Positions 3,901 through 24,223 of a DNA stretch of 64,000 nucleotides are shown here, piece by piece (position 1 is the first letter of the stretch; every line of letters begins with the position of its first letter). Under the pieces are notes generated by a model. That model ran no database searches, was not told the origin of the DNA, and saw only the letters and a list, made by a program, of their open reading frames with translations. Source of the DNA: Blattamonas nauphoetae (lineage: Eukaryota > Preaxostyla > Oxymonadida); NCBI GenBank assembly GCA_033064195.1, contig JARBJD010000276.1, forward strand, positions 35,589 to 99,588, in the 5' to 3' direction. The position numbers and the translations under genes were made by a program.

Positions 3901-6900
3901 TGTCGTTTTGGAGCGTGCACAACGAACGGGCGAGCAGGAGCGATCGATTTGGTGAAGAATGATGTTAACAGCGCTGTCGAGATGAGCTCTTGTTGGTTTG
4001 ATCAGAATTCAGCTGGAGAAGAGGTTCCTGACGATGAGAGAGGAGATGATGTCGTCCTGAAGTCGTTCGCTGAACCCAACACCCTTCTCGATTTCTCAGC
4101 CATCTACTCCTTCCCCTCCCCCTCCTCCTTTCTGATCGACTTGTCACACCCCATCGTCCCTCCTCCTGCCCTCCTTATCATGACCACAACTGGTGTTGAT
4201 GATCCACTAACCTGGAGCTACACATACGGTGAGATCACCAAGTCTCTCTTCGAGAAACACTCTCTCCAGTTCCTTCTTGAACATCGTTTCAGGAACAATA
4301 CCAAAACTGAACTGAAAACAGACTCTGGTTACAGCACGACAATGACACCATTCATCTTTCAAAATTCAACCGTCTTCGTGAATCTCAAAAACAACTCTGC
4401 ATCCATCATCACTGTGGATCAACAGGGCGAAGTCTTCATCACCCTCCAAACGGCGTCCTTATCGTTCGAACAGGTCCAATTTGTGTTTGGACAGCTGACA
4501 ACGTCAGCCTTCACTTGTGATAAAGATTCATCGATTGAACTCGTCAATACAGTCCTCAAGCTCACCACTCCAACACTCACCCATCCATACGTCGATTCTT
4601 TCGGTCCATCAGTCATTTTCAAGTCTCAAGGCTTCCTCCAAAACATCACATTGGACCGCACTCCCTTTGTTCGACTCAACCGTGCTGAAAAGGATGCTGA
4701 ATTCGTCTACCAAGGCGTCGCTCCTCTTCTTGCCAGTCCTCTGACTGCCCCATTCATCGTCTGTGAGGGAGCAAAGTACATTATGATGCAAACTCTGACA
4801 TTGAATTATTCATTCGTCAATTCGGCATCGTTTGTTTACGCCAAAGCATCATCTTTCAATTCATATGGGAATCACCTCATGCTTCTTAAGTCGACTGCAA
4901 AAGGCGCGTTTCTCCACATCGAAGATGGCACCGTCCATTTCCAGCAAGATAAATATAATTCAAGTTCAGACGAGCAAGGTGGGTTGTTGTATTGCCACAA
5001 TTCCACGATAACATCAAAATATCAAATATCCAGCTCGTGTTCAGCGAAACAAGGCGGAGTTTTTTTCTCACAGGAGTCCAGTGTGAACATGAATGGGGGA
5101 ACCTTCTCGAACTGCGAGGCTGACGAAGGTGGAATTGCATATCTTTTTTCGTCTTCTCTTCTCATTGAATCGACTACTCTCGTCTCCAATTCTGCCAAAA
5201 GGGGAGGTGTGTTCTTCATCGACTTCGGAAACGACTCCCCATCGTCAGTCATATCGAAGAACACAGTTTGTTACACAAACAACACTGCACATGATGAGGA
5301 TGAGAGTGGTGTGGATTCTGGGAAGGGAGGAGCGATCTTTGTGACAGGAACCACAACTTCAGTGAAGCCTCTCGCTCTGAGCGGTTCATATTTTGAGGGC
5401 AACACAGCTACTTTTGGGAATGACGTGTTTGTCGAGGAGGAAGTGCTGGGAGAAACAGGACCAGATCTTCTGTCGGAATGTGGTGGAGAATCCTACAGCA
5501 GATTCCCACATCTCGAAATCGAGAACCATGATGGAGATGACGAGCTCCTCGCAATCTCGGACTATCTTCCATTTCCAACTGTTCGCATTTCAAGCATTGG
5601 TTCGGATGCTCAAACGTGCAAATGGTCCAAAGTCGACTGCAAGACTCTCGTTTATGCTCTCCCCTTTCTTCAATCAGAATATTCCGATGGACGCCCGTTC
5701 CAACGAAAATGCGTTCAAGTTTACGATGCAATGACAACGGAACCAATCGAATTTCAGAGACACGATGTGCTCTATCTCAGTTCGTCTTCGGACAGCAATT
5801 ATGTTTTCAGTTTGCCTCTCTCTGCGGCTCACAATGACAAGGAGGCAGTCGTGTTCACGATCACTGGTGAATCGAGATTGACCGCTGTGAGGATCAGGTT
5901 TTTGTTGAAATCATTGCACCAAGTTGTGAAGGTGACATCCAAAGAAGGGCGACTTGCGATGCAACACTGCGTTGTCTTGAGCGAGAGCGGCACCACAACT
6001 TCGACATCTCCGATCTGGTGTGTGGGGAGCTCACTCGTCCTGAACACCGTCTCGTTCTCCCCAACTCTCACCACTTCCATCGCTACTCTCTCTGTCCCTC
6101 TCGTCCATTTTACGCCTACCCCTTCTGTTAAGGGGGAGTTGCGAAATGGAACGTGCGATATTACTGGTTGCACTCTCACCAATCTCACATTTTCGAAGAC
6201 AACGTTATTCGAGATCGAGACGAGTGGCCGCGTCAGTTTTGTTCTTCAGTCGATCACTCGAGTCACAACAGATTTGGAACAAGGAAAATACATTTCTCTG
6301 AAGGGACGATCATTCAAACAGCAGATTCAGCCTTCACTTTGGCATTCGAACCCGACAACATCAGATCTGCCCTTCTACGTTGGGGAAGATGTCTCAATGG
6401 ACCAAAAGGACAAATGGAGAAACAACTCACTTGTGTATTGGCTGATGTCTCCGAAGGAAGAGGTCAAAATTGGATCAGATGACAATGCTGTCGATCATCC
6501 GAATTGTGGATCATCCACTTTCCAATGCACCACTCTCGATTCTGCCTTCAAATCAGGTGGTCTCAACGACCTCTCCACGCTCACCCTTTCAACATCAACA
6601 TCTCTCTCAACGAAACTGTCGGTGACGTCGTTGTGGGTAATCAAGTCGTCATCATCGGCAACGAAGCAAGGAATCAAATTTGACCAGAATGGCTCGATCG
6701 AAGTTGCCAGTTCCGAGGCCAACTTATCGTTTGCGTCGATCATCTTCACTGTTGCCGAAACATGTCAGTCAGCCACTCTCTTTGTGGTTGAGGAAGGAGA
6801 ACTCTCTTTCTCGTCGTGTGTGATCGGATCAGAAGACAGTTCATCGCCTCATGTTCTCCCAGCATCAACAACGACTCTGATTGAAGTGAAGACAGCTGGA

Positions 6901-7665
6901 AATCTCATCCTCACCGACACACTGATCCAACACATCAAATTCTCGCACGCCACGCTCGGAACAGCCATTCGTCTTCATCTCGGCTCGACAACCTCCTCAA
7001 GTGGAACAAAACCCATCTCAAACATCTCATCGAACACAGTTGGAAGACATGCCCAAATTGTTGTCTCGACTAACCCGGACGAAAATTCACTTTCTGCCCT
7101 CTCGGAACTCCTCAAAACTTGGGGACCGACCCTGACAGACAGTCCCCGCTACTCCAAAGACGAGATAAACGAGTTCGCTACGATTGACGAGGATGGGAAT
7201 GTGAATGAGCTGATCTACAGTTGGTATTCGTATGATGGGACCACGATGTATCTTCATTCGGAAGGAGGAAGTCACGCGAAATGTGGTGTTTCTGCTCTTC
7301 CATGCTCCTCCCTCTCAGCTAGTCTAGAGAAGGTTGATAATGGAGAGACAATCATTCTCTGTAGTGCTCTGACTGAAACAGCAAACTTCGTTGCCACCAA
7401 AGATCTCTCAGTCAAATCATCCGACAACAAGAAACAAATCATTTCTGTGTCAAGTTCGACGACATTCACAACTCAGGATTCCAATCTCACTTTCGCAGAT
7501 CTTTCATTCGTTCCACTCCCTTCGACTTCATCCCAGAATGCGGAACCGTTGGAGAGAGCTGATTCTCTCTTCCTTGTGGAATCTGGTTTGATAGAACTCA
7601 CAGGTTGCTCACTCTCATCATTTGTCATCGACAATAAACCACTTCATCGATATGAACGACAATGA
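973..7665 (+). CDS. Giant surface receptor, ectodomain part
   Basis: This frame encodes about 2,230 residues. I chose one of three tandem ATGs at 973-981 because a typical signal peptide follows directly (MMMHISVIAIFLSIL). The rest is Ser/Thr-rich, with short hydrophobic beta-strand-like repeats and regularly placed Cys, Asn and Ser, as in right-handed beta-helix (pectin-lyase-like) surface proteins. A module with the pattern C-G-x(4-5)-C-x-[ST]-[LI] recurs near 6505, 7280 and, in the following frame, 7885. The frame ends at a stop at 7663-7665, but the same protein clearly continues in the next frame from about 7622, where the transmembrane and kinase-like parts lie. Expected role: membrane receptor or adhesin. 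Ligand and function are unknown. Confidence 0.7.
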   Translation: MMMHISVIAIFLSILKPHISPLSSTHMVNLDNIIKQSSRSKSSDSSQPVSLPDGVVHAHDFPLISSSIVVNGGHQTVLKYLDGNRDRENPIAKEVNHIPSNGINSLFDLQNASLSLQRVVMDMSSESANQDVRCAVLASSTIFISFCEFFWTDLKSLFVLRSGSPSEQASSSVTLAWCSLKNSVGHLMPIVEDMRKDITAGAIDLNMVGTRIDNMKVVGPDGVGVSQTNHHNDLSSFEGISTTVSELRILNVSSLPKEVKEVSSLFSQRMVGCGIWGSNNHLSGSVLRDVNGGGSFLCSNSTFDWCHTTSSERPSIVRSTSQTIDNHSTIRKISNQAEPGDDPNDPYTGKLYDDSSRFITRDVPITFTRCQFTNMKYTATSVSEILAGGSAIFLNYSTNPASIISCSFSKCSVTSTFAVYGGCVYMYYMRTSTITIDACSFDDWYPTNDANTKQSGGGIGAHSTSAPLQITNTNFTLSGDTTNKNNGGFFASLSGFTTQSSTLANCRFIGESKTTGRVMHLDSTSSQYQPSTTLTVTDSQILNTNSQLEINSITFESSSGFTRTEITNTSIQYSSKTSSTRPFLFVDCKLDNSSVNSMGLMMFLISGTSFTGKPIDTSKSYIHLQSSSHVVIHNCDFTDCSPSASKYLIYSYIARSLVLDICSFTRCTGGSSIVYVEKAYAFLYFCIFADVTDTNSSVITLYANHANFFESCRFNLGETKNVDVYIPTIQFTYLNDTAVIGCTSNRQMYFGTYSDRKELTAVQIVNPKAEKNEMRVGTWPTEPGDPQPIPLFSSLSEALSALTNPTLDSVITVSTGNFTEATLLSVSKIIEIVGAGSKIDDRHSTQLTTNGFVSKLNGELALRSLRLVPSSISSVVASTEDDGSLCVLDVIVEDVTDHSVHLFRFATGSSEIRHSSFKTINSTESLIFVSQTASLTITNTLFLSIMRTRPNPTPYDTTQCASCIEGKTSGRVKVIYCRFGACTTNGRAGAIDLVKNDVNSAVEMSSCWFDQNSAGEEVPDDERGDDVVLKSFAEPNTLLDFSAIYSFPSPSSFLIDLSHPIVPPPALLIMTTTGVDDPLTWSYTYGEITKSLFEKHSLQFLLEHRFRNNTKTELKTDSGYSTTMTPFIFQNSTVFVNLKNNSASIITVDQQGEVFITLQTASLSFEQVQFVFGQLTTSAFTCDKDSSIELVNTVLKLTTPTLTHPYVDSFGPSVIFKSQGFLQNITLDRTPFVRLNRAEKDAEFVYQGVAPLLASPLTAPFIVCEGAKYIMMQTLTLNYSFVNSASFVYAKASSFNSYGNHLMLLKSTAKGAFLHIEDGTVHFQQDKYNSSSDEQGGLLYCHNSTITSKYQISSSCSAKQGGVFFSQESSVNMNGGTFSNCEADEGGIAYLFSSSLLIESTTLVSNSAKRGGVFFIDFGNDSPSSVISKNTVCYTNNTAHDEDESGVDSGKGGAIFVTGTTTSVKPLALSGSYFEGNTATFGNDVFVEEEVLGETGPDLLSECGGESYSRFPHLEIENHDGDDELLAISDYLPFPTVRISSIGSDAQTCKWSKVDCKTLVYALPFLQSEYSDGRPFQRKCVQVYDAMTTEPIEFQRHDVLYLSSSSDSNYVFSLPLSAAHNDKEAVVFTITGESRLTAVRIRFLLKSLHQVVKVTSKEGRLAMQHCVVLSESGTTTSTSPIWCVGSSLVLNTVSFSPTLTTSIATLSVPLVHFTPTPSVKGELRNGTCDITGCTLTNLTFSKTTLFEIETSGRVSFVLQSITRVTTDLEQGKYISLKGRSFKQQIQPSLWHSNPTTSDLPFYVGEDVSMDQKDKWRNNSLVYWLMSPKEEVKIGSDDNAVDHPNCGSSTFQCTTLDSAFKSGGLNDLSTLTLSTSTSLSTKLSVTSLWVIKSSSSATKQGIKFDQNGSIEVASSEANLSFASIIFTVAETCQSATLFVVEEGELSFSSCVIGSEDSSSPHVLPASTTTLIEVKTAGNLILTDTLIQHIKFSHATLGTAIRLHLGSTTSSSGTKPISNISSNTVGRHAQIVVSTNPDENSLSALSELLKTWGPTLTDSPRYSKDEINEFATIDEDGNVNELIYSWYSYDGTTMYLHSEGGSHAKCGVSALPCSSLSASLEKVDNGETIILCSALTETANFVATKDLSVKSSDNKKQIISVSSSTTFTTQDSNLTFADLSFVPLPSTSSQNAEPLERADSLFLVESGLIELTGCSLSSFVIDNKPLHRYERQ
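7600..7665 (+). other. Apparent +1 frameshift between receptor halves
   Basis: The ectodomain frame and the membrane/kinase frame overlap here, and the protein character is continuous across the switch. No GT...AG segment of 30-46 nt with a pyrimidine-rich end, like the introns elsewhere in the window, fits. The simplest explanations are a one-base assembly error or a real indel in a decaying gene. A programmed frameshift is possible but has no visible signal. Confidence 0.5.
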
Positions 7666-20485: not shown

Positions 20486-20973
20486 AAGTTTTTGGCATGG
20501 GTTCGGAACGTATGCCCAAGTTCGATACGTATGTCTTTTGGATTTTCCGCGCGACCTATCAGAGTCCAAAATGAGCAAACATCTCCAAACAGTGCACAGG
20601 GGAAATATCCCTTCTAGGACATCAACTCATAGATACTCGATTTGAATTCAGGAAACCAATGGAGAAACCAGATCCTTCCACCTTGGTCAACTTTTTGGAG
20701 ATATGATTCGATTTAGATAGCCAGCGTCAAGGAATCACATCGTATTAACGGTTGAACTGAGACTGACGGTTCGATTTGATGATGTCATCGGGCCGAGAAG
20801 AGAAAACGTGTCAGATCGTGAATGGATGAAGAAGTGCATTAAATTCGTCATTTTTGATCCTATTCTTAAATCTAATCATTTTATGAAGGAAAAGGTGATA
20901 ATGAAGGGGATGCAATATGTTAAACAGAGATACTCCTTCATATGAGAGATATTCGACATAATTTATTCTGACC

Positions 20974-22851
20974 ATGGACGTGATATCCTCACTCGCTAAA
21001 TCTCTTCTTGAGACAGTGTATGCACTTCATTATACTCATTTGAATCATATTCTTGACTTTAGAAAAACAATATTGACAACACAACAAGATCGAAGCGACA
21101 CAAACGAGAAGATTGATCGCGCTCAAGCGGAGTCATCTGCTGACGAAGATGATAAATCCAATCAAAATCTGGAGACCGAACCCGTCCCAGAGTGTCTCGA
21201 AGACACACCTCAACGAGCATTTACGTTTGCCCAAGAATGTGGGCTCCTCCCACGCTCCACGACTTGCCCTGAATGCGGGAAAATACTCAGCAAGACGAAG
21301 AAAAACAGACCAAATTCCGAATCAAGAGTCTTTTCATGCGCAAATGGCCATCCTAAAGTTCGAGTCTCCGTAAGTGATCAAACCATACTTCAGAAATCAA
21401 AACTCCCACTCCGAACAATATTGAAAATATTCCGATCATTCTGGAAGAACGATTCGATTTCTGCCATGCAAGCCGATTGTGGAATAGCAAAAGAAGCAGC
21501 TACAAAGTGGAGAAGAATCTGCCGTCATGTGTGTTGTGTTGCCCTTCAGAAGAGAGAAACAAAGATCGGAGGACCTGGAAAGACAGTCGAAGTTGATGAA
21601 GCCCACATGATTCGATCGAAAGGAAGGCGTGGGAAGGGAAGAACAGGATACTGGATGGTGGGAGGATGCGAAGTTGGAAATCCATCAGCCTATTTTGTGG
21701 AGATGGTGGCTGCAAGAGATCGAGCGACACTTGAAGAAGTTTGCAATAGAAGAATCAAGAAAGGAACCGAAATCGTGACTGATATGTGGAAAGGATATGG
21801 ATTTGCAGACACGAAAAAGAAAAAGCACAAGACAGTCAATCATTCTCGGAATGAATGGGTTGGACCGGATGGAGCGACCACAAACCACATCGAAGCAAGG
21901 TGGAAGCATGTCAGAGCTTCACTCCCAAAGAATGGTGTCCCAAGGTGGTTCCATGAAGGATACATCCAAGCGGAACAACTGCGAAAGATGCCTTGGACAT
22001 TTCAGGATTTTCTCCGAGAATGTGGATCCGTGACAAAAGATCAACTTGATCTCATGATGTCTTTCGAGGACGCTGAGAAACAGGCCACAATCAAACTGCT
22101 CTCTGTGGACAATGATCGCAGAAAGAAGAATGCTGAACTGATCCAGAAATCAGACAAGGTAATCAGAAGCCATCACAACAGAAAACTCAAAGTGATCCAG
22201 AAGCAGCAATCTCTGGCTTCAATCCAACTGGACATCGTGAATGCTAAGCTGGCAAAGAAGGCAACACCAAAAGTCGTTCACGAGGTTCAACCACAACTCG
22301 ATGAAGAATGGGGTCCAGATTCACCTCGCTTTCGTCCACCCATCCAAAAGACAAAACGGACCCATTCCACCAATCGTGATCCAGATTTCTACTATCCATC
22401 CATCTCAAAGAAGGAGAGACGCAAGACTGGATTGGTGCAGTCACTTCTTCAACAACTTCAAAAGAAATGGCCCCAGTTCAAGGTTGAAAATGTGGTTGGC
22501 GATGGGAATTGTGGATTCTATGCAGTTCAAAAATCCCTGACGCCAGAAGAACTGGAGGCTCATCCGGACTTGCGGGGAGAACTTGCCGAGTGGGAAAGAA
22601 CCAACCCTCACTTCTTCGAGGAATTTGGTGACAATTTCGAAGAGGGTTCCTATCAGGCTCATCTGGATGTGATTGGAATTGATGGAAGATGGATCAGTGA
22701 ACTGGACTTGGCAGGACTTTCTCACGTCCTATTACGACCAATCCAGTGCCACTATCTGACTAGTCAAAGTCAGACTTATGGTCCGGATCATCCAGGAGCC
22801 ACAATCCACGTTGGCTACATCAACAACAACCACTTTGTGGCGATGCTGTAA
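20974..22851 (+). CDS. Merlin-type DDE transposase fused to OTU cysteine protease
   Basis: An intronless 625-aa protein. Residues about 98-126 form a zinc ribbon (C98-x2-C101 ... C122-x3-H126), followed by a helix-turn-helix-like segment (about 140-180). An ISXO2/IS1595-type DDE core follows with D208 (EVDEAHM), D270 (TDMWKGYG) and E307 (NHIEARWKH). After a basic coiled-coil-like linker (about 365-440), residues about 490-625 form an OTU fold with D510-G-N-C513 and the C-terminal H620 in NNNHFVAM, the catalytic signature of OTU deubiquitinases. The transposase would cut and paste the element. The OTU part might remove ubiquitin from the transposase or host factors; that role is inference. The frame is uninterrupted and there is no sign of a frameshift joining two genes. 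Confidence 0.88.
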   Translation: MDVISSLAKSLLETVYALHYTHLNHILDFRKTILTTQQDRSDTNEKIDRAQAESSADEDDKSNQNLETEPVPECLEDTPQRAFTFAQECGLLPRSTTCPECGKILSKTKKNRPNSESRVFSCANGHPKVRVSVSDQTILQKSKLPLRTILKIFRSFWKNDSISAMQADCGIAKEAATKWRRICRHVCCVALQKRETKIGGPGKTVEVDEAHMIRSKGRRGKGRTGYWMVGGCEVGNPSAYFVEMVAARDRATLEEVCNRRIKKGTEIVTDMWKGYGFADTKKKKHKTVNHSRNEWVGPDGATTNHIEARWKHVRASLPKNGVPRWFHEGYIQAEQLRKMPWTFQDFLRECGSVTKDQLDLMMSFEDAEKQATIKLLSVDNDRRKKNAELIQKSDKVIRSHHNRKLKVIQKQQSLASIQLDIVNAKLAKKATPKVVHEVQPQLDEEWGPDSPRFRPPIQKTKRTHSTNRDPDFYYPSISKKERRKTGLVQSLLQQLQKKWPQFKVENVVGDGNCGFYAVQKSLTPEELEAHPDLRGELAEWERTNPHFFEEFGDNFEEGSYQAHLDVIGIDGRWISELDLAGLSHVLLRPIQCHYLTSQSQTYGPDHPGATIHVGYINNNHFVAML

Positions 22852-22969
22852 AAACCATTCACCTTCACTCCACATTCATTCGCTTCTCTCTCTCTTTTTG
22901 GAAAAGTGTGGGTTCAATTCACGGGTTCAATCTGAAATAAAGTGGATACAGTCTGAATAGTTCAAAGTC

Positions 22970-23177
22970 GAACATAAATAATTCAAAGTCGAAGACAATA
23001 ATTCAAAGTCGAAGAAAATAATTCAAAGTCGAAGAAAATAATTCAAAGTCGAAATGAAATAATTCAAAGTCGAAGTAAATAATTCAAAGTCGAAGTGAAA
23101 TAATTCAAAGTCGAAGTGAAATAATTCAAAGTCGAAGTGAAATAATTCAAAGTCGAAGTGAAATAATTCAAAGTCGA
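22970..23177. repeat. Tandem array, left foldback arm
   Basis: About eleven head-to-tail copies of a 20-21 bp unit of the form AATAATTCAAAGTCGAAGTG, with small variation in the last bases. It is the mirror image of the array at 23684-24030. Short repeats without spacers and in opposite orientations rule out a CRISPR array. Confidence 0.9.
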
Positions 23178-23683
23178 AAAACAATTATTTGCCGTTAGCC
23201 TTCGAAAGCAGCACACAATTTCCTCTATTTCTCCTGTGACCTTTTCGTACCCATGTGCTTTATCGGGTGAATACGTTTTTCAGGATTTAAAACAATGCAT
23301 TCATGCTTTCTGAAGTGATTTTGAGCTTTTTAGATGAAAACAGTAACTTCATTGGTCTGAGAAAAAACAGCCTGTGACACGCAAAAGAGAGTAGGATTGA
23401 ACTAACGTTTGAGAGGCGTGAAGGAGTCATCGGTGTGACTAAATATGGAAACTCTGGGCCGAGTTCAACTTGTGCAGGATCTGATTTGTTAGTTTTTCTG
23501 GGCTTAGACGAAGAATTGCTGGGAAATGAGCTCTAAAAAGTGAACTATGGCCGAGAAAGTGTTGAATACTGTCGGATGATACTTAACTAGCCACCATTCT
23601 GATCATTGATTCTGTGTTTGTGATCATGAAAGAGTGGTGTGTGAGGTTCACTAAAACAAATTGGTCCAAAAATTTGGTCCTTC

Positions 23684-24030
23684 GACTTTGAATTATTTCA
23701 CTTCGACTTTGAATTATTTCACTTCGACTTTGAATTATTTTCTTCGACTTTGAATTATTTCACTTCGACTTTGAATTATTTAATTCGACTTTGAATTATT
23801 TCATTTCGACTTTGAATTATTTGCTTCGACTTTGAATTATTTTCTTCGACTTTGAATTATTTAATTCGACTTTGAATTATTTCACTTCGACTTTGAATTA
23901 TTTTCTTCGACTTTGAATTATTTCACTTCGACTTTGAATTATTTACTTCGACTTTGAATTATTTCATTTCGACTTTGAATTATTTTCTTCGACTTTGAAT
24001 TATTTTCTTCGACTTTGAATTATTTATGTT
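23684..24030. repeat. Tandem array, right foldback arm
   Basis: About eighteen copies of the inverted unit TTCGACTTTGAATTATTTCA, longer than the left arm, so the two arms have expanded or contracted independently. The two arms could fold back into a very long imperfect hairpin. Confidence 0.9.
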
Positions 24031-24223
24031 CGACTTTGAACTATTCAGACTGTAAATGCGATCGTTCACTATTCCCAGCTCAAAGAAGTGCTTTTCCAAC
24101 AGTCCACAACCAGTGACATACATTCCGAACTTTTTCCATACATACCGAACTTGGGCATACATTCCGAACCTGAGACATACATACCGAACTTGGGCATACA
24201 TACCGAACCCATGCCAAGTTTTT

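Follow-up and report, generated by a model that had tools for sequence, protein, structure and literature searches.

Why would the transposase of a DNA transposon end in a domain that resembles a deubiquitinase? The question is raised by one open reading frame in the window, the 64,000-nucleotide stretch of Blattamonas nauphoetae DNA analysed here, which a sequence-only reading had described as a Merlin/IS1595 transposase fused to an OTU-like protease. The element that carries this frame belongs to the cut-and-paste Merlin (IS1595-type) transposons, its transposase being joined via a linker to a C-terminal OTU-type tail; we are highly confident of this identity, a Merlin transposon whose OTU-superfamily tail has been retained by selection.

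The frame (20974..22851, + strand) is open for all 625 codons, as the sequence-only reading had it, but the product is likely to be about 610 aa long. The nearest database protein, NCBI P0002 ('putative transposase [Blattamonas nauphoetae]', 610 aa, 98% identity), lacks 15 residues matching the stretch GTATGC...TTTAG, so that an in-frame, stop-free intron of 45 nt is likely at 21018..21062 (+). The other three proteins matched by the window frame likewise come from B. nauphoetae, and three protein searches returned only proteins of this species (4, 6 and 2 matches). A zinc ribbon is plausible by eye at residues 98-126 (CxxC...CxxxH; 21265..21351, +), although Pfam zinc-ribbon models score there only below their cut-offs. 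An HMM search, suggested in the earlier reading as a check, came out divided: DDE_Tnp_IS1595 is found above its cut-off at residues 205-316 (21586..21921, +; E=1.3e-11), with D208, D270 and E307 conserved and at the positions claimed, whereas Pfam OTU (PF02338) matches residues 509-600 of the window protein at E=2.1e-4 and 22.2 bits, just short of the cut-off of 23.3. We place the C-terminal OTU domain at residues about 501-625 (22474..22848, +) from the Pfam match, an OTU-tail profile and homologous tails elsewhere in the genome.

The ends of the element, its target duplication and a nested insertion were absent from the earlier description. The complete Merlin-family element, delimited by terminal inverted repeats (TIRs), target duplication and reading frame, spans 20494..24215 (+) and measures 3722 bp, including a nested insertion of 1104 bp. 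Its left TIR (20494..20536, +), which begins 5' with GGCATGGGTTCGG, pairs with the right TIR identified by repeat comparison (24173..24215, - strand); the two ends are 91% complementary across 45 bp, counted from 20492, and additional subterminal repeat units lie at 24117-24209. The 8-bp target duplication AAGTTTTT is present as exact, unstranded copies at 20486..20493 and 24216..24223. Between the transposase stop codon and the right TIR sits the nested insertion (22949..24052, unstranded), recognised from sequence and repeats as a non-autonomous element with inverted tandem-repeat ends CAGTCTGAATAG... and a TA duplication. Its inverted arms are built of AATTCAAAGTCGAA-type tandem repeats, and it is probably a non-autonomous Tc1/mariner-type element, a label that we presume from the TA-duplication rule. 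The transposase-OTU frame is the sole long frame of the Merlin element. An IS1595 DDE domain, TIRs starting with GG and 8-bp duplications, the published marks of Merlin elements in the available text of PMC8101967, are all present here, and 8 bp lies within the 8-9 bp by which we judge a Merlin target duplication.

Does the fusion belong to the transposon, or is it an accident of one locus? The whole window protein has 80 matches in the genome, and PF12762 has at least 94. Ends were searched for at 20 Merlin loci, namely the window and 19 further stretches with Merlin transposase matches. A matched GGCATG/CATGCC TIR pair was found at nine of them, with GGCATG at both ends in every case, and at eight of these nine the element is flanked by an exact target duplication of 8 bp, whose sequence differs between loci. 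The ninth (L027, a broken copy of subfamily D) has no 8-bp duplication, 7 of the 8 bases being different, and the remaining 11 loci yielded no usable TIR pair.

Among the frames read, four Merlin subfamilies end in an OTU-like domain: A (the window, L009, L010 and others), B (L012, L014), C (L018, L019, L020) and D (L013, with L015 and L027 as broken copies; 98% DNA identity). Across seven aligned proteins, identity to the window protein is 31-38% in subfamilies B, C and D, yet D270, E307, N512, C513 and H620 are invariant in all seven, and D208 is kept in all six that reach that position. The DGNC motif is present in six of the seven and replaced by PNDC in subfamily D. Pfam OTU scores above its cut-off in five of the six other Merlin-OTU copies tested (L009, L012, L014, L018, L020) and in the fragment L040, which reaches the curated cut-off; it finds nothing in the sixth, L013 of subfamily D, and L016, a non-Merlin protein discussed below, likewise stays below the cut-off.

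With A-, C- and D-type OTU queries, and with two pieces of one gene counted separately, we find at least 31 OTU places in the genome. At 20 or more of them the OTU lies within 2.5 kb downstream of a same-strand Merlin DDE match: C197, C170, C179, C48, C148, C547, C579, C77; C437, C279; C57 (two), C358 (two), C46, C35, C501; C59, C423 and C268. Several of the 20 are broken, and three (C77, the second on C358 and the second on C57) rest on weak OTU matches of 30-36% identity. The other 11 of the 31 are P-loop-like proteins and fragments with no Merlin DDE neighbour. OTU-less Merlins also exist among the frames read (L024-L026 and L028, about 350-420 aa), and a tree of the zinc-ribbon/DDE part separates six OTU-bearing from three OTU-less Merlins at 100/100. 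This transposase tree fits a single origin of the Merlin-OTU fusion, though its rows are few and its branches long.

Some copies moved recently. The elements of L009 (C170) and L010 (C179) are both 2772 bp long and show no differences, yet they have unrelated flanks and different target duplications, which rules out assembly duplication as the source of their identity. An OTU-bearing copy with an open fused frame has thus moved recently. The sequence-only reading would have given way had the fusion been an isolated artefact; four diverged subfamilies of the same genome and these identical copies rule that out. Because diverged copies and recently moved ones share the fusion, it is a property of the lineage, and the tail belongs to the transposon.

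The tail is also maintained. Whole-gene dN/dS between the window and L009 is 0.21. For the OTU only, it is 0.22 in subfamily A, 0.41 in B and 0.68 in C, and pooled over the three it is 0.476 (bootstrap 95% 0.28-0.84; at or above 1 in 3 of 1000 replicates), so that the pooled OTU is under purifying selection. Taken alone, the subfamily C OTU gives 0.68 in one estimate and 0.64 in another, the latter with bootstrap bounds of 0.30-1.63, which include neutrality, and subfamily B narrowly includes it with an upper bound of 1.015. Pairs that involve L016 or L017 give 0.585 for window-L016 (upper bound 1.02), 0.511 for window-L017 (0.93) and 0.553 for L017-L016 (1.06). Divergence between the window and L009 is uneven along the gene: dS is 0.07 in the OTU-coding end against about 0.6 in the rest, and identity is 99-100% over 350 nt spanning the gene end and a little past it (window 22594-22943). 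So much less divergence here than in the remainder of the gene makes it probable that this end was swapped or converted between subfamily A copies.

Is the tail an OTU? An absent OTU fold was the other outcome on which the sequence-only reading had staked its proposal, and the profiles point the other way: one built from eight OTU tails finds OTUD5 (7.1e-9), OTUD3 (8.5e-7) and further OTU structures. A profile of three A-type tails, one of them from L016, also places OTUD5 first, but weakly (E=0.042), and hhalign aligns window-type with B/C-type OTU tails at a probability of 96 (E 2.6e-9). Structure prediction, likewise proposed earlier, adds less. AlphaFold models built on alignments of only 6 and 4 sequences reach a mean pLDDT of 39.8 for the full-length protein and 42.7 for the OTU (pTM 0.37). 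With this low-confidence OTU model Foldseek returns 469 matches at E<=10, the best at E 0.033 and none at or below 0.001. The best 50 of the 469 are all deubiquitinases, which we take to be OTU-type as far as we recognise them, and they lend weak support to the modelled OTU fold.

The earlier reading had called the OTU signature complete. D510-G-N-C513 and H620 do stand at the positions claimed, and the codons of the predicted nucleophile C513 (22510..22512, +) and of H620 (22831..22833, +) encode residues invariant in all seven aligned proteins, but the window protein has V622 where most OTUs have N or D. The third residue of the triad, two after the catalytic histidine, is N or D in most OTUs, while some use an acid elsewhere or none. 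OTUD5 has N there in the profile alignment, whereas all eight aligned OTUs, including that of the P-loop-like L016, have Val. Because both models are poor, no alternative catalytic acid can be placed. We nonetheless consider it reasonably probable that the predicted OTU is catalytically active.

OTU tails are not confined to Merlin. PF02338 has 38 matches in the B. nauphoetae genome, 14 of which share a similar profile coverage (2 or 3 to 119 or 128); among these 14, frames were read in three (C701, C220, C349), and C90 was compared as DNA. One of the proteins so found, L042 (967 aa), has hAT features and an OTU at its C-terminus; its core matches Dimer_Tnp_hAT below the cut-off (E=0.006), and its whole sequence matches Hermes at E=0.0079 in two weak collinear stretches. 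The hAT-like proteins ending in OTU are L042/L048 (C701), L049 (C90), L041 (C220), L045 (C349), in which the OTU histidine is lost, and L036 (C52). The copies on C701 and C90 are 99.5% identical over 3961 bp, and a search for their element ends found none. Our literature search found no description of a hAT transposase with an OTU domain, and these proteins are potentially a second unreported transposase-OTU fusion.

An OTU also terminates large frames of about 1370-1750 aa (L016, L029, L031, L035, L037, L038 and the shorter L039). L016 and L029, both read whole, are 38% identical, and their OTU types differ, as if swapped; L031, L035, L037 and L038 were read in their C-terminal part only and are taken as relatives from their OTUs. 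We call these proteins P-loop-like because a weak nSTAND3 match, below its cut-off (E=0.0028), lies in the frame beside L016. They presumably resemble Crinkler/RHS proteins, and 'CRN' in their row names is to be read as a label only. The short frames L032, L033, L034, L043 and L044 form a further OTU group with a DGNCFFRSVSVSLT-like motif. Since OTU tails are found here on non-transposase proteins too, the domain is not tied to transposition.

How did Merlin come by its tail? Among the rows compared, the closest relative of the window OTU outside Merlin is that of L016, at 47% identity, and the OTU tree groups the two at 99/96. The hAT-like OTUs form a group of their own (85/84). The OTU of subfamily D, on a long branch, joins the hAT-like and short-frame OTUs (86/89), apart from the other Merlin OTUs. 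The Merlin rows need three changes on this tree, and the starred branches force at least two. For clades picked after inspection of the tree, in which long branches are present, the AU test rules against a clade restricted to the Merlin A+B+C OTUs (p 0.0096) and likewise against one restricted to the P-loop-like group (p 0.0099). It does not reject A+B+C plus the L016 OTU (p 0.225) nor, narrowly, this last set with D added (p 0.071). A single undisturbed inheritance of the OTU within Merlin alone is ruled out by the rejection of the exclusive A+B+C clade and by the placement of the D OTU elsewhere. Because the window OTU is nearest that of L016 and the exclusive clade is rejected, the OTU seems to have moved between families. 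The simplest story on these trees would be that Merlin captured the OTU once and that an A-type tail passed once from Merlin to the L016 gene; transfer in the reverse direction, or several captures, are possible. We put forward only tentatively the broader reading that an OTU-like C-terminal module is shared by three or more kinds of selfish or conflict-type proteins, two or more of which have exchanged it. One viral-contig scan and one prokaryote-genome scan confirmed no relatives.

The tail probably helps the transposon to evade or rework host ubiquitin control. The best overall explanation, to which we give an even chance, is that the transposase brings a deubiquitinase-like OTU to the transposon ends. 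Carried there and into the transposase's own complex, the predicted OTU could remove ubiquitin from the transposase itself or, alternatively, deubiquitinate proteins at the excision and insertion site such as histones and repair factors, and the removal of ubiquitin would result in a longer-lived transpososome or in tolerant repair. Self-protection or local deubiquitination of the transpososome may be the reason for which the tail is retained, a proposal that we rate just short of evenly balanced. Between the two we slightly prefer self-protection, which the earlier reading had also proposed as a possible shield of the transposase against ubiquitin-dependent turnover: an OTU working in cis would require no targeting, and this makes the role the simplest one. 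That an OTU also ends hAT-like transposases in the same genome and Ginger1 transposases in animals suggests a recurrent benefit. Ranked next after self-protection, though doubtful, is an action on components of chromatin or of DNA repair, such as ubiquitinated H2A/H2B or damage signals, rather than on the transposase, which would open targets or steer repair. An effect on repair factors suits a cut-and-paste enzyme that leaves broken ends, and the discoverers of Ginger1 proposed it for both OTU and Ulp1 domains, as the available text of PMC2836005 has it; the sequence, however, singles out no substrate for such a role.

An OTU that counters, in trans, a host defence based on ubiquitin or ubiquitin-like marks on transposon proteins or chromatin would also suit the tails of hAT-like transposases and large P-loop-like proteins, the module then being shared among selfish or conflict genes. 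The kinship of the window OTU with a P-loop-like one and the rejected A+B+C clade speak for this reading as well, but we consider it unlikely: the P-loop class hangs on the one below-cut-off match beside L016, the hAT-like OTUs stand apart so that the tree gives no exchange with them, and we know of no such host defence in oxymonads. A catalytically dead OTU, kept as a structural or ubiquitin-binding tail, is similarly improbable. A dead enzyme would be favoured by V622 where the acid usually stands and by the divergent PNDC motif of subfamily D, yet cysteine and histidine are retained in all seven aligned proteins, and the OTU enzymes A20 and TYMV PRO make no use of the position two after the histidine. 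We give almost no credence to a neutral passenger or a gene-prediction artefact in which the frame reads through into an unrelated gene; the window copy alone falls just below the Pfam OTU cut-off, but the frame sits within the TIRs, and the four subfamilies, the recent identical copies and the pooled dN/dS below 1 all stand against it.

How new is the arrangement that our preferred reading, a transposase delivering its own OTU, sets out to explain? No Merlin-OTU fusion was described in the literature found, as the earlier note had claimed (most subscription journals lay outside the search), but OTU tails on DDE transposases as such are known from Ginger1. According to the available text of PMC2836005, Ginger1 families in Hydra, Aplysia and Acyrthosiphon bear an OTU, while other Ginger1 families carry Ulp1; like the window element, the former combine a DDE transposase and a C-terminal OTU in one protein. 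Ginger1 combines a DDE core of Gypsy-integrase type with CCGG/CCGT target duplications, whereas the window element has an IS1595/Merlin core and varying 8-bp duplications, and these unrelated duplications together with the IS1595-type core rule out the window element as a Ginger1. A DDE transposase with a C-terminal OTU is thus already known, and it is for the Merlin version that we found no description.

Other known systems share parts of the design. Mutator-like elements with ULP1, cited in the available part of PMC2836005, also place a protease for a ubiquitin-like modifier on a DNA transposon, but with another transposase superfamily and another peptidase family. Helentrons and Helitrons carry an OTU cysteine protease on a mobile element, though they are rolling-circle elements in which, in the passages of PMC4067079 at hand, the OTU is an additional ORF. 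The hAT-like L042, L048 and L049 resemble the window protein as transposase-like proteins ending in an OTU and differ in their hAT-like core and distant OTU. The Merlin survey PMC8101967 covers Monocercomonoides families and, in its available text, gives the superfamily the same DDE_Tnp_IS1595 domain, 8-bp duplications and GG-starting TIRs, with internal tandem repeats in some elements; it reports one Symbiodinium family with a ZZ zinc finger at the C-terminus, as well as a WD40 chimera, and mentions no peptidase tail in that available text. The words 'OTU' and 'protease' are absent from its main text. The main text of the B. nauphoetae genome paper (PMC10703272), as available, has no words beginning with 'transpos'.

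A deubiquitinase-like tail is hereby seen on another DDE superfamily, unrelated to the first, where diverged subfamilies have kept it and copies have moved recently. The older suggestion that ubiquitin pathways regulate transposition becomes directly testable with a compact transposase-OTU protein, whose predicted nucleophile is open to mutation and assay in yeast or human cells. If the tail was exchanged with another gene family, as is likely, it would be a case of a ubiquitin-directed module that moves inside a single genome; and if three kinds of protein do share the module, ubiquitin-dependent restraint of mobile elements would be strong enough to select anti-ubiquitin tails repeatedly.

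Some Merlin copies have conspicuous neighbours. The subfamily D copy L013 (C59, 1-9001) lies among frames that by eye resemble Maverick/Polinton genes (B-family polymerase, integrase), as does the OTU-less copy L025 (C482; B-family polymerase), suggesting that both are nested inside Maverick/Polinton-like surroundings. Beside the Merlin element of L009, a frame at 6429-7346 resembles by eye a pogo/Tc1-type DDE transposase.
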